A stretch of DNA of 21,549 bases from a virus: the IMG/VR virus record IMGVR_UViG_3300042317_001116, positions 1 through 21,549 of that record; one strand, 5' to 3'. A model generated the notes under the pieces. It saw only the letters and a program-made list of their open reading frames with translations, made no database searches and had not been told where the DNA came from. Both the position numbers and the translations under genes were made by a program. Positions 2,000-6,907 of this stretch are shown here, in pieces; position 1 is the stretch's first letter; each line of letters begins with the position of its first letter.

Positions 2000-3226
2000 T
2001 CAGCTGCTGCCGGCGGCGACCAGCTTGGCCACGAACTGCGGGTCGTGGTTCGCCAGGCCGAACCGCTGGAGGCCGCGGTAGACGATGCCGTTCGACTTGA
2101 ACGCCGCGTGTTCCGAAGCCGCGACCTCGAGGCCGTTCTGCTTCAGGACCACGGCGGTCGCCATCGCGAAGTCGCCGTAGAGGGCCAGCGTCCCGGCGGG
2201 GAGGCCGAGCACCCGGTAGACCGGAGCACCCATGACCGTCGGCAGGACGCGATCGCCGACCGTGGTCGACTGGCTGATCACGCTCGACTTCAGCATGTGC
2301 GTCCAGCCTTCGCCCGACACGACCCAGGCCGTGTTCGAGGCCCGGGTGTCGATCTTGCCGACCAGCTCGGCCAGGTCGCCACCGTCGAAATCGGTGCCGG
2401 CCTCGACCTCGTTGTCCTCGTCGACCAGGTCGACCAGGCCGTCGATTTCCTTGGCGTTGTCGCCGTTCAGCCAGACGTTGTCGATCTTGGTCGCGACCGC
2501 GATCGAGATCTGGCGATTGAACACGGTCGCGAGGTTGGCCACGCCGGCCGCGTCGTCGAGCAGCCGCCGCGAGATCGTGACCAGGCGGCCGACCTCGTTC
2601 AGCTTGATGTCCTCGCGGCTGGTCGGGAGCGCCTCGTCGTCGACCTCGGTCAGCTCCTCGACCCAGTCGGCCTCGATGTCGCCGATCTTGGGAACCTGGA
2701 ACTCGTTCGAGGTCGTCTCGAACAGGGTCGCGAGCTGCACACCCACCGACTGGTAGGCGAGCGTCTCGAGGAACCCGCGGTACAGCTCCGGGGAGACCAG
2801 CTCGACGCCGGCCCCGTCATAGGTGGGCGAGGTCTCGCCCATGTTGCGGAGGTCGATGGCCTTCGCACCCATGCCGATCGCCCGGAGGAACGAGCCACCG
2901 GCCACCAGGTCGGCGGCCGCCACCGGGCCGCGCTTGGCGATGTGGATGGCCGGAGCCTTCCGGGTCGCCTTCTCGACTTCGCCGGCGGGGGCGGAGGCGG
3001 GCGTGGCCGCCGTCACCTTCCGCAGCCCTTCGAGGCGGGCGTCGATCGCGTTCTCGCGGGCGGCTTCGACCTCGACCTGGGCGGCGCGGGCCTCGGCGGC
3101 GTTCAGCCGCTCCTGGATCGACGCGGAGTCGGCGTCGTCCTTGGGCTCCATGGAGCGAAGGTCGACGATGGTCTTCGAGAGCGTGGATGCTTCATCCTGA
3201 AGCCGGGCGAGCTTGGGGCTGGGCAT
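2000..3226 (-). CDS. HK97-family major capsid protein
   Basis: A 408-residue protein with the layout of HK97 gp5-type capsid precursors. The first ~75 residues are a charged helical region (LARLQDEASTLSKTIVDLRS, then IQERLNAAEARAAQVEVEAA) expected to be the delta/scaffold domain removed by the prohead protease. A basic linker (KATRKAPAIHIAKRG) follows, then the mature shell domain, including 'GVELVSPELYRGFLETLAYQ', 'TSNEFQVPKIGDIEADWVEE', 'LVTISRRLLDDAA' and a C-terminal P-domain 'VLPTVMGAPVYRVLGLPAGT'. Two ATGs (3229, 3226) follow an AGGAGGG ribosome site; 3226 has the better spacing. The protease is encoded upstream but separated from it by five envelope-type genes, whereas these two genes are usually adjacent. 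Confidence 0.93.
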   Translation of the reverse strand: MPSPKLARLQDEASTLSKTIVDLRSMEPKDDADSASIQERLNAAEARAAQVEVEAARENAIDARLEGLRKVTAATPASAPAGEVEKATRKAPAIHIAKRGPVAAADLVAGGSFLRAIGMGAKAIDLRNMGETSPTYDGAGVELVSPELYRGFLETLAYQSVGVQLATLFETTSNEFQVPKIGDIEADWVEELTEVDDEALPTSREDIKLNEVGRLVTISRRLLDDAAGVANLATVFNRQISIAVATKIDNVWLNGDNAKEIDGLVDLVDEDNEVEAGTDFDGGDLAELVGKIDTRASNTAWVVSGEGWTHMLKSSVISQSTTVGDRVLPTVMGAPVYRVLGLPAGTLALYGDFAMATAVVLKQNGLEVAASEHAAFKSNGIVYRGLQRFGLANHDPQFVAKLVAAGSS

Positions 3227-3286
3227 CATGCCCTCCTGTGAGCGTTGGTAGTTGTCCGAAACCTCTCGCACGATAAAGACGACCGC

Positions 3287-3304: not shown

Positions 3305-3613
3305 TCAGGGGCGACATTTTCCGTCCGGGCACGACTCCGGCACCCTGCCCTGTTGCCGCTGCCGCTTGCATCGTTCGCAGTTGCAGCGGCAGACCTGTTC
3401 GACGCGGCCGTCGGGCTTCCACACTCCGTTGACGCAGGTCTGGCCGCAGTCGCAGTCGGTCGGGGCCGGGGCCGGGGGCGCAGGCGCGGCCGTCACCATC
3501 GAGGCCCGGGCGGCCGACACGGCGGCCGCGGCCTTCGCGTGCTCGAGGTCCACAGCGTCGGGCGCGGCCGACAGCCAGACCAGGAGCGAGATCAGCCAGC
3601 GCCAGAGGTTCAT
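3305..3613 (-). CDS. secreted or membrane-anchored Cys-rich small protein
   Basis: A 102-residue protein. The first ~18 residues (MNLWRWLISLLVWLSAAPDA) look like a signal peptide or signal anchor. An Ala/Pro-rich spacer follows, and the last ~50 residues contain nine cysteines in a CDC...C...C-C-NC-RC...C...C arrangement (TDCDCGQTCVNGVWKPDG, VCRCNCERCKRQRQQ). This could bind metal or form disulphides after export. The ATG overlaps the upstream stop (ATGA, 3610-3613). It is the last gene of the envelope-type block ahead of capsid. Proximity suggests a role in lysis or envelope modification; no family is recognised. Confidence 0.6.
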   Translation of the reverse strand: MNLWRWLISLLVWLSAAPDAVDLEHAKAAAAVSAARASMVTAAPAPPAPAPTDCDCGQTCVNGVWKPDGRVEQVCRCNCERCKRQRQQGRVPESCPDGKCRP

Positions 3614-3864
3614 AGGGTGTTCCCGTTTTCGAGGATCTGGAACCCGTCCCGATCGACCCGCGACTTCACCACCGCGGCCGGCGGCTCCGGCGGGGCCGGC
3701 TCGACGAACACCGCGACCCACAGGAGGTTCTTCGCGGCCTTGGCGATCCAGCGGACGACGGGCCGATCCTGGGGGCCGGGGCCGGGGGCGGGCCTCGAGC
3801 TGGTCCACCAGCCGGCCGCGAAAACGACCACCAGGACCAGGAGCGTGTTTCGGTCGAGCTTCAT
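3610..3864 (-). CDS. small single-span membrane protein
   Basis: An 84-residue protein starting MKLDRNTLLVLVVVFAAGWW, with one clear N-terminal transmembrane segment (about residues 7-22) after a short basic start. A Pro-rich stretch (RPAPGPGPQDRP), a second weakly hydrophobic patch (AAKNLLWVAVFVEP) and a polar C-terminus follow. The ATG at 3864 has a GAGGA ribosome site 6 bases upstream; an earlier GTG at 3876 would overlap the previous stop. It directly follows the papain-like peptidase gene and precedes the Cys-rich secreted protein. A spanin-like, holin-like or peptidase-partner role is possible but not shown. Confidence 0.55.
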   Translation of the reverse strand: MKLDRNTLLVLVVVFAAGWWTSSRPAPGPGPQDRPVVRWIAKAAKNLLWVAVFVEPAPPEPPAAVVKSRVDRDGFQILENGNTL

Positions 3865-3872
3865 GGTTTTCC

Positions 3873-5006
3873 TCACAGTGCAAGGTCGAGGCCGGGGATC
3901 ATCACCGGGCCGTCGTCGGGCGGGGGCGGGGCGAGGACGTCGTTCGAGAGATCACGCCAGCCGAAGCCGGCGACGGAGCCGACCGCGAAGGAGTCGGGCT
4001 GGCTTCCCAGCATCCGCTCCACGGTGGACCGGCGGACCCAGAAGCTGCCCTCCGGCATGTCGGCCGGCCACTTCGGGCCGGAGATCCATCGCGGCCCCCA
4101 GCTGTTCAGGCACAGGAGCGCGTCTTCGGGCGACCCGTTCTTCGCGTAGCGGACCGCCACGAAAACCATGCAATGGGCCCACTGGCCAGAGGCCCGCGCG
4201 TACCCGTGCTGGTCGCGGACACTCTCGAACCCGACAAGGCAACAGACCGGGATCGGGAACCCGGCCTCGATCGCGGCGGCCGCCTCCGCGAACGTCTTGA
4301 CCATCGCGACGTGCTGGGCCGGGTGCCGCTTCGCGATCGCGTCGAGCTTGCCGCCGTCGCCCTGGCCGCCGTTGCCGTAGGCTCCCCACTTCTTCGCCCG
4401 GTCGGCGGAGTAGACGCGGAGATCGTGGCCGCCGACTTCCTCGCGGTAGACGATCCCCCAGTCCTTCACCCACCGGGCCGCGGCCGCGCCGTAGCTGCCG
4501 TCGCTCCAGCCGCCGACAGCGGAGCGCCCGTCCCCCGGCCGGCCCCGCGCCTCGACGCGGCTCCCGCCATAGATCGCTTCGGTCGAGGGGAACGGCGGCG
4601 GGTTCGCCAGTCGGCCCGTCTCCCAGTCCACGCATTGAGCGACCCAGACCCCGTGGGCCCATCCCCAGGAAACGCAGTCGCCGATCCCCTGCCGCTCGAC
4701 CACCCACGGCCGGCCGTAGAGGGCGGCGTGGGCCTTGTAGGCGGCGCGGTACAGGAAGGTGTCGACCCCCCTCGACTCCCGGATCGTCTCGGCCCCGGCC
4801 TGGCGGAACATCGGCTCCGGCAGCTCGCGGAGGAACGCGGCCACGCCGTCGGGATCCGGGTGGTATCCGAAGTCGCCGTCGGCCTCGAGGCCGAACAAGC
4901 CGCCGGCCGGGCGGCCGCGGAGGCCGCCGATCAGGAAGGCGGCGGCCACCCCCAGGAGCAGGACGAACGCCAGAAGGCGAATGTGCCGAAACTCAGCGCG
5001 AGACAT
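3873..5006 (-). CDS. membrane-anchored papain-like (C1 family) cysteine peptidase
   Basis: A 377-residue protein with an N-terminal membrane segment (residues ~8-28, IRLLAFVLLLGVAAAFLIGG) and a papain-like catalytic domain. The papain signature can be traced: Gln106 and Cys111 in RQGIGDCVSWGWA, His278 in GQWAHCMVFVAV, and Asn301 in CLNSWGPRW, which match the oxyanion Gln, nucleophile Cys, His and Asn of C1 peptidases. The start at 5006 overlaps the previous gene by 14 bases and has a GAGGG ribosome site. It sits among small membrane proteins where an endolysin would be expected, and no lysozyme, amidase or transglycosylase is visible in the window. I infer a lysis or cell-wall-protein-degrading role. 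Cleavage of a virion protein is an alternative. Confidence 0.8.
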   Translation of the reverse strand: MSRAEFRHIRLLAFVLLLGVAAAFLIGGLRGRPAGGLFGLEADGDFGYHPDPDGVAAFLRELPEPMFRQAGAETIRESRGVDTFLYRAAYKAHAALYGRPWVVERQGIGDCVSWGWAHGVWVAQCVDWETGRLANPPPFPSTEAIYGGSRVEARGRPGDGRSAVGGWSDGSYGAAAARWVKDWGIVYREEVGGHDLRVYSADRAKKWGAYGNGGQGDGGKLDAIAKRHPAQHVAMVKTFAEAAAAIEAGFPIPVCCLVGFESVRDQHGYARASGQWAHCMVFVAVRYAKNGSPEDALLCLNSWGPRWISGPKWPADMPEGSFWVRRSTVERMLGSQPDSFAVGSVAGFGWRDLSNDVLAPPPPDDGPVMIPGLDLAL

Positions 5007-5547
5007 CGGCGGCCCTCGCGATCTCGCGGTAGGCGGCGATCCAGGCGGACCGCTGGGCGGGCGACATCGGCGCGCCGCTCGTGCCGGCCGTGCGGTCGAG
5101 GTACTCGCGGATCGCCTCGCGGGCCCGGGGGTATTTCTCACCCAGCGAGACACCCTTCCACCGCAGGGCCTTCGCCCGGGTCCGCAGCTCGTCCCAGGCC
5201 ACGCCGCTTTTCACCAGCGGCTCGGCCGACATGCCGTCCCATTCCAGCTCGTCGGCCAGTTCGGCGAAGTGGGCCGAGACCGCCGCGGCGTCGGCGGCCG
5301 CGTCGGGGCCGACGAACATCCCGCGGAGGTCGATCGCGGCGTCGGGGGCGGGCGGCGCGGGCGTGGGGGCCGTCGGCCCCGACCGGGCCCACATGACCGC
5401 GGCCGCCGCCAGGAGCGCCGCCCCGGCCAGGTGCTTCCGCTCGATGGTCGGGGCCTTCTCGGCGAACGACGCGACCAGGTGGGTGATCCGGTCGCCGGCG
5501 AACAGGTAGACCGCCCCGGCGATCAGGAGCAGGACGACGAGATCCAT
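4993..5547 (-). CDS. membrane protein with two hydrophobic segments, envelope/lysis block
   Basis: A 184-residue protein starting MDLVVLLLIAGAVYLFAGDR. The first membrane segment is at residues ~2-18 and a second at ~41-54 (AGAALLAAAAVMWARS). A Pro/Ala linker (PTAPTPAPPAPDAA) follows, then a soluble, mostly helical C-terminal domain (FAELADELEWDGMSAEPLV, REAIREYLDR). No known domain is recognised. It ends inside the start of the C1 peptidase gene (14-base overlap), so the two are probably made together. A helper or holin-type role for the peptidase is inferred from topology and neighbourhood only. Confidence 0.55.
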   Translation of the reverse strand: MDLVVLLLIAGAVYLFAGDRITHLVASFAEKAPTIERKHLAGAALLAAAAVMWARSGPTAPTPAPPAPDAAIDLRGMFVGPDAAADAAAVSAHFAELADELEWDGMSAEPLVKSGVAWDELRTRAKALRWKGVSLGEKYPRAREAIREYLDRTAGTSGAPMSPAQRSAWIAAYREIARAADVSR

Positions 5548-5549
5548 AG

Positions 5550-5921
5550 TCAGGCCCTCACGAGTGGCAGCAGCTGTTCGATCGCCCCGGAGGCCAGGGC
5601 CAGGACCAGCGACCGGACGGCCGGCCGGGCGATCAGCCAGAGCGGGTAGACGACGGCGGGGACGGCCTGGTCGGCCACCGCGTCGAACAGGTGGGCCACG
5701 GCCTCGAGGGCCAGGGCCTTCTTCTCCGCGCCGGTCATCGAGCCGACCGTGTCGAGGGCGGTCACGACCAGGCGGAGCAGGGCCAGCATCAGGTCGCCGA
5801 ACTCGACCCAGGTCAGGCCGTCGGCGGCGGCCGACTTCGAGGCCTCGACGAAGGCGTGGATTTTCCCCAGGAGGCCGGCGTCCAGGTTCGTGGCCACGGC
5901 CACGGGGGCGGAAGAAATCAT
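5550..5921 (-). CDS. hydrophobic small protein, possible holin-like, function unknown
   Basis: A 123-residue protein starting MISSAPVAVATNLDAGLLGK, with an AAAGGAA ribosome site about 8 bases upstream of the ATG at 5921. It contains several hydrophobic helices (WVEFGDLMLALLRLVVTALD, ALALEAVAHLFDAVADQAVP, AVVYPLWLIARPAVRSLVLALA), the last of which could enter a membrane. It opens the block between prohead protease and capsid and ends two bases before the next membrane-protein gene. A holin-like role is possible, but the segments are also compatible with a soluble helical protein. Confidence 0.5.
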   Translation of the reverse strand: MISSAPVAVATNLDAGLLGKIHAFVEASKSAAADGLTWVEFGDLMLALLRLVVTALDTVGSMTGAEKKALALEAVAHLFDAVADQAVPAVVYPLWLIARPAVRSLVLALASGAIEQLLPLVRA

Positions 5922-5935
5922 GGGTCGGTTTCCTT

Positions 5936-6907
5936 TCAGCCGGTGACGATTCGCATCCGGGCGGCGGCGGCCGCTGCCGCGGCCCGGGCCCCGGCCAGGG
6001 TCGAGACCTTGACCGGCGGCGTCCCCCGCGGGACCGGCGCGGCGTCCGGGATCCCCTCGGGGTAGTCGTCGATCCACACGTCCACCTCGAGGCCGGCGGC
6101 GGCCGCGGCGGCCCGCTTCTGGGTGCCGGTGCCGCAGAGCAGCAGCCCGGCCAGGTCGAGGTCGCCGAAGGCCAGCCGCAGCTCGTCGCGGTTGGCTTCG
6201 TTGTCCTCGCGGCGCGAGATGCACACCACGCGATTGCCGCGCCCCGTGGCGTCCACGATGAAGGACCGCCACAGGCCGGGCGCGGCGGTGAACGTGCGGT
6301 CGTAGTCGATCGAGATCGTGAGCGGCTTCGGCTCGGCCCGGTGGGCGACCACGCTCCGGAACCGCTTCCAGAGCGGCAGCGACCTGGCCGACAGGCTCGA
6401 GGACGGGTAGGCGGCCCGGGTGACTGGCGACACGTCGTAAAGGCCGGAGGCCTCGTGGACCGTTCGCGTCACGCCGCCGCGTTCGTCCTCGACCCACTCC
6501 TCGCCCTTCGGGTTGACCGTGAACGCGAACGACGACCCGAAGATCGTCTTGGTCCTGATCAGCGTCAGGACCTTCTCGGCGTCGGCCGTCGGCACGGGGT
6601 CGCCTTCGTAGGCCAGACCCTTGTCCGCCTTCGAGATCCGGAGCGTTCCGTTGGTCGTCCGGGCCAGGATCTGGGAATCGTCGTGATTGAACAGGAGCGG
6701 AACGTCCAGCCGCTTCTTCGCCAGGATCTTGTCGAACGACGTCGACGCGAACTTCTCCCGGAATCCTCCCAGGTCCACGGACAGCGAATCCCACGGCGGG
6801 GCGATTCCGCGAATCTTCGGGGCCTCGCCCTCGCGCTCCTCGACGAACAGGCCGTCGTCGCCGATGGCGTCCAGCGACAGGTAGCGTCGTTCGATCTGCT
6901 CGTTCAT
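5936..6907 (-). CDS. HK97 prohead serine protease fused to a compact HAD-like domain
   Basis: A 323-residue protein. Residues ~1-180 are a U35-type prohead protease: 'IRGIAPPWDSLSVDLGGFRE', a candidate catalytic His75 in PLLFNHDDS, candidate Ser125/126 in IFGSSFAFTV, and the conserved strand 'GLYDVSPVTRAAYPSSS'. Residues ~195-285 carry all four motifs of a HAD-superfamily phosphohydrolase: D201-x-D203-x-T205 in LTISIDYDRTFT, S231 in VVCISRRE, K264 in GTQKRAA and D280/D281 in VWIDDYPE. The tail is Ala-rich. HK97-type proteases are usually shorter and lack this part. The ATG overlaps the portal stop (ATGA). The protease would mature the capsid; the HAD domain's substrate is unknown. Confidence 0.85.
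   Translation of the reverse strand: MNEQIERRYLSLDAIGDDGLFVEEREGEAPKIRGIAPPWDSLSVDLGGFREKFASTSFDKILAKKRLDVPLLFNHDDSQILARTTNGTLRISKADKGLAYEGDPVPTADAEKVLTLIRTKTIFGSSFAFTVNPKGEEWVEDERGGVTRTVHEASGLYDVSPVTRAAYPSSSLSARSLPLWKRFRSVVAHRAEPKPLTISIDYDRTFTAAPGLWRSFIVDATGRGNRVVCISRREDNEANRDELRLAFGDLDLAGLLLCGTGTQKRAAAAAAGLEVDVWIDDYPEGIPDAAPVPRGTPPVKVSTLAGARAAAAAAAARMRIVTG

Follow-up and report, generated by a model that had tools for sequence, protein, structure and literature searches.

Lysis of bacteria by double-stranded DNA phages is taught as hydrolysis of peptidoglycan. In phages such as lambda and P21, the holin, endolysin and spanin genes form compact, mobile cassettes of small membrane proteins and one exported hydrolase that recur across unrelated phages; the P21 endolysin is signal-anchored. 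In methanogen viruses, the PeiW and PeiP proteins are pseudomurein endopeptidases of family C71. The cassette analyzed here, in a 21.5-kb linear fragment of a viral genome from IMG/VR (hereafter, the window), resembles those of lambda and P21 in its compactness and mobility but its hydrolase is, by inference, a protease, it includes a putative redox partner, and it lacks a muralytic enzyme and any recognized holin or spanin. Like PeiW and PeiP, the window enzyme is a viral cysteine peptidase that would act on a host wall without bacterial murein, but it belongs to a different family, and its substrate would be wall proteins instead of pseudomurein peptide. In the open-access literature searched (subscription journals were outside the search), no description of a protease lysis cassette was found. 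The peptidase is probably the catalytic part of a cassette with which phages of planctomycetes lyse their hosts, by proteolysis rather than by hydrolysis of peptidoglycan, the role in lysis being an inference.

Table 1. Features of the window around the peptidase gene and the replacement cassette of related phages
Feature	Coordinates	Strand	Remarks
HK97-type major capsid protein	2000..3271	-	Slot border
Gene 6, exported Cys-rich protein with DnaJ-like CxxC pattern	3305..3613	-	Prophage homologues carry a thioredoxin domain
p88, N-terminal transmembrane segment, second amphipathic segment, conserved C-terminal tail	3610..3876	-	Shares 4 nt with the gene for the peptidase
Membrane-anchored papain-family (C1-like) cysteine peptidase, 377 aa	3873..5006	-	Residues Q106, C111, H278, N301
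TM184, N-terminal transmembrane segments and conserved ~110-aa domain	4993..5547	-	Contains the first 14 nt of the peptidase gene
hyd134, ~123-aa hydrophobic/amphipathic protein	5550..5921	-	Constant in both cassette types; holin candidate (inferred)
HK97-type prohead protease (S78)	5936..6829	-	Conserved slot border; start codon not fixed
Type II cassette: exported Trypsin_2 protease, 290-aa candidate cysteine peptidase, small transmembrane proteins	L274:5140-8320; L238:5800-8690

The papain-type active site that the earlier note had read from the sequence alone is borne out by its conservation and by the predicted fold. The oxyanion Gln, the catalytic Cys and His, and the third residue, Asn, are all present, with Q106, C111 and H278 identical in all 69 aligned diverged relatives and N301 in 68 of 68 (one row of the 69-row alignment is gapped at this position). 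The AF2 model built from this alignment has a papain fold and high confidence (pLDDT 93.5, pTM 0.92); a model from only 18 close sequences reached a pLDDT of 46, and it was the 69-sequence alignment that resolved the fold. Structure comparison using Foldseek and VIA yielded papain-family proteins throughout among the matches listed, the nearest solved structure being xylellain (3ois; Z 22.4, 236 residues, 2.8 A), with procathepsins and papain next. The profile of the 69 sequences retrieved eight PDB matches, all from the papain family (chains of cathsilicatein, cathepsin H and papain), albeit with weak scores (E 0.04-2). The curated C1 profiles of Pfam and NCBIfam do not recognize the peptidase up to E=1, and there was no match in PHROGs, in a phmmer search of the PDB, or in a tblastn search of 50,697 phage records. 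Because this is a divergent branch without a match to a curated C1 profile, the protein was assigned to the papain fold family but to no named subfamily; it is a divergent member of this family, and its proteolytic activity is only inferred. The fold, the Q/C/H/N set and the NSWG motif are common to the peptidase and the papain family (MEROPS C1; xylellain, cathepsin B, papain) but, unlike the known C1 enzymes, to which it is about 12-19% identical, the window peptidase is membrane-anchored and encoded in a phage cassette. Two phage-encoded proteins with the papain fold (Peptidase_C1 of uncultured Caudovirales; BFVD A0A6J5TCZ4 and A0A6J7XQB9) are clearly similar in structure but show only 14-18% identity and have no known function. 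The N-terminal stretch of the model aligns with the proregions of procathepsins, so the peptidase might be a zymogen, although this is an inference.

Relatives of the peptidase are encoded in >400 IMG/VR stretches, and the gene evolves under purifying selection (dN/dS 0.12-0.31). The membrane anchor, also proposed in the earlier note, is apparent as a hydrophobic N-terminal segment in 134 of the 137 distinct homologues, and in 106 of the 137, the catalytic domain is predicted, by charge bias, to lie outside the cytoplasm. More distant relatives in planctomycete genomes (L363-L368), with no cassette genes detected, may be host proteins or belong to other prophages.

The peptidase gene belongs to a five-gene cassette with the order hyd134, TM184, peptidase, p88 and gene 6, in which each of the last three junctions is an overlap, of 14, 4 and 4 nt, respectively (Table 1). 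The full order is found in 152 of 220 loci, the remainder being without one or more of the genes, in some cases through the end of the contig; in 17 large contigs, the peptidase and TM184 are present in all 17, hyd134 in 16 and p88 in 14. These loci were retrieved via the peptidase, so that its own universal presence is by construction but that of its neighbors is not; the loci are contig windows that overlap between searches, and the distinct proteins represented are 141 peptidases and 61 of type II (see below). Nearly all peptidase, TM184 and p88 proteins have N-terminal hydrophobic segments. In the peptidase, the charge bias points to export of the catalytic domain; in TM184 and p88, it is weak. 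A TM184 homologue in two planctomycete genomes carries a lipoprotein-type leader (LLPGC), so that the TM184 domain is probably located outside the cytoplasm. In two loci (L361 and L362), TM184 and gene 6 homologues have lipoprotein-type leaders, and a neighboring transmembrane gene resembles TM97 of the type II cassette (21 bits). The three hydrophobic or membrane neighbors of the peptidase are real and conserved, as originally suspected, and the exported Cys-rich gene 6 has to be added as a fourth. Small membrane proteins are present, none of the cassette proteins being assignable to a known family of holins or spanins.

The homologues of gene 6 (174 matches, with a median of nine cysteines) are Cys-rich proteins with an N-terminal hydrophobic leader. 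Thioredoxin domains score above the Pfam cut-off in three of these (from L105, L357 and L362), and the homologue from L362 combines the Cys-rich motif with WCGPC in one protein behind a lipoprotein-like leader. The identification of gene 6 as a DnaJ zinc finger was rejected, the score being under the Pfam cut-off.

The cassette moves between phages as a unit; hundreds of viral contigs contain it, as do prophages of the Blastopirellula type. Two of the genomes look finished, one of 52,593 bp with a 123-bp terminal direct repeat (G026) and the other of 35,575 bp with a 127-bp terminal direct repeat (G029), and outside the cassette, these are unrelated to each other. The content that G026 has in common with 16 other contigs is almost confined to the cassette (the few exceptions include DNA methylases), which matches the expectation for an exchangeable functional module. 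In the window type and many relatives, the cassette lies between the prohead protease and the capsid gene. This location inside the head module is unusual for lysis genes and is evidence against a role in lysis; it is also what could suggest a role for the peptidase in the virion or in morphogenesis (head maturation or entry). The cassette, however, lies elsewhere in G026 (after the tail genes) and in B. marina and G442 (upstream of the terminase), the peptidase has a predicted membrane anchor, and the S78 protease is already present. Given the variable position and the anchor, a virion protease was set aside as very unlikely. The C-terminal extension of the prohead protease in the window matches PHROGs of unknown function (phrog_4919 and phrog_4256).

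The absence of a visible muralytic enzyme from the window, remarked on in the earlier note, is confirmed: the 36 ORFs contain 15 Pfam families, none of them muralytic, and no classical endolysin is identified. The window being only a fragment, the search was extended to larger relatives, and no endolysin was found there either. In targeted searches, lysozyme, M23, NlpC/P60 and SLT domains were detected in none of 31 large contigs, CHAP in none of 34 and Amidase_2 in none of 17; control genomes matched in each of these searches. Most of the contigs are fragments, so that the weight of the evidence is carried by the two genomes with terminal repeats. Among their called ORFs, 24 (G026) and 25 (G029) Pfam families were identified, none of which is muralytic. 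Thus, Pfam reveals no other lysis enzyme in these genomes, but unknown muralytic folds among the unannotated ORFs are not excluded; the PHROG scans of the complete genomes cannot prove the absence of lysis PHROGs, being limited to the matches listed (25 families).

Further evidence comes from phages in which the cassette is replaced. Two related phages (L238 and L274), with the S78 protease identical to that of the window at 92% and 67%, respectively, have the same head genes and retain hyd134 but are without TM184, the peptidase, p88 and gene 6. The slot between hyd134 and the capsid gene is occupied in these phages by a tight seven-gene operon, the type II cassette. Its Trypsin_2 protein (77 bits against a cut-off of 27.6) follows a leader with paired Cys motifs, and the second candidate cysteine peptidase, PapII (290 aa), has invariant Q77, C83, H235 and D253; with no profile tie to papain, the candidacy of PapII rests on these residues alone. 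The type II cassette was detected in 82 loci and the peptidase in 220, with none containing both, and in the 17 full contigs, type II was not found together with the peptidase. This replacement bears on the possibility that the cassette alters the envelope in some other way, as in superinfection exclusion or receptor removal, and that lysis depends on unrecognized genes. The membrane-tethered, exported proteins and the carriage by prophages would fit exclusion, and no match to a known holin is seen. A dispensable function, however, would need no refilling of the slot where the cassette is missing, and refilling by another protease cassette is what is observed; nor is there any other lysis candidate, by Pfam, in the two finished-looking genomes. 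Such an alteration of the envelope therefore appears improbable.

Planctomycete genomes, among them that of Blastopirellula marina DSM 3645, carry prophage copies of the cassette, in agreement with the earlier guess of a host with a protein-rich envelope. According to one study, peptidoglycan genes are missing from most Planctomycetales, and cysteine-rich YTV proteins are present in walls (PMC8567305), although several planctomycete species have been reported to contain peptidoglycan and to be sensitive to lysozyme (PMC4432640), which is evidence against the proposed lysis. The cysteine-rich YTV wall proteins were detected in all five host genomes searched and in none of the 14 controls. Peptidoglycan transpeptidase is absent from four of the five host genomes (10 of the 14 controls are positive), and the only genome with this enzyme, G052, is also the only one with murG above the curated cut-off. 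The peptidase relative in G052 is without a transmembrane segment, and no cassette genes were detected, so that the exception fits the pattern, with the caveat that there are only five genomes, four of them MAGs of unknown completeness. The B. marina copy lies in a compact ~24-kb prophage (contig C2, about 3955141-3979325; L175-L177) in which no obvious integrase was seen; it may be domesticated or GTA-like. A second isolate genome (L105) contains a 26-kb element that closely resembles it, and near relatives of the peptidase from this prophage are encoded in three further planctomycete genomes.

The papain fold is distantly related to CHAP and NlpC. The peptidase could, accordingly, be a muralytic endopeptidase that cuts peptide stems, like CHAP and NlpC/P60 of clan CA, in which case lysis would be ordinary in principle; weak similarity to mycobacteriophage Lysin A in BFVD and the reported presence of peptidoglycan in some planctomycetes are compatible with such an activity. 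This is quite unlikely, considering that the best structural matches are true papain-family proteases rather than CHAP or NlpC, that most of the host genomes are missing the transpeptidase and that the alternative cassette employs a trypsin-like protease.

Lysis by a protease in place of an endolysin, the central proposal of the earlier note, is thus supported by the lack of a detected endolysin and by the planctomycete hosts, with the function in lysis remaining inferred. The peptidase would be anchored in the inner membrane, exposing its active site to the periplasm. Control or permeabilization of the membrane, and the timing of lysis, may be the task of the small membrane proteins hyd134 and p88, joined in some lineages by another small transmembrane protein. 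Host wall proteins are envisaged as the target of the peptidase, no substrate being known, and its Cys-rich or thioredoxin partner might reduce or exchange the disulfide bonds of the cysteine-rich proteins of the wall or, alternatively, keep the thiol of the peptidase reduced. Because planctomycete walls consist largely of protein and a papain-like protease is encoded where an endolysin would be expected, bursting of the cell by digestion of wall proteins is possible. The evidence supports a cassette that works like a lysis cassette, but its membership is incomplete, since none of its proteins could be assigned to a holin or spanin family and lysis has not been observed; there are no experimental or expression data. 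The more specific scenario, in which a membrane-tethered papain-type protease and an exported thiol-disulfide protein dissolve a cysteine-rich wall, and at least two interchangeable protease cassettes have arisen for such peptidoglycan-independent lysis, is tentative, with the odds slightly against it. If true, protease-based lysis would show how phages exit from cells with a mainly protein wall, and would provide independent evidence on the disputed planctomycete wall along with enzymes to open these bacteria. The question of what holds the planctomycete cell together would then become testable with defined enzymes.
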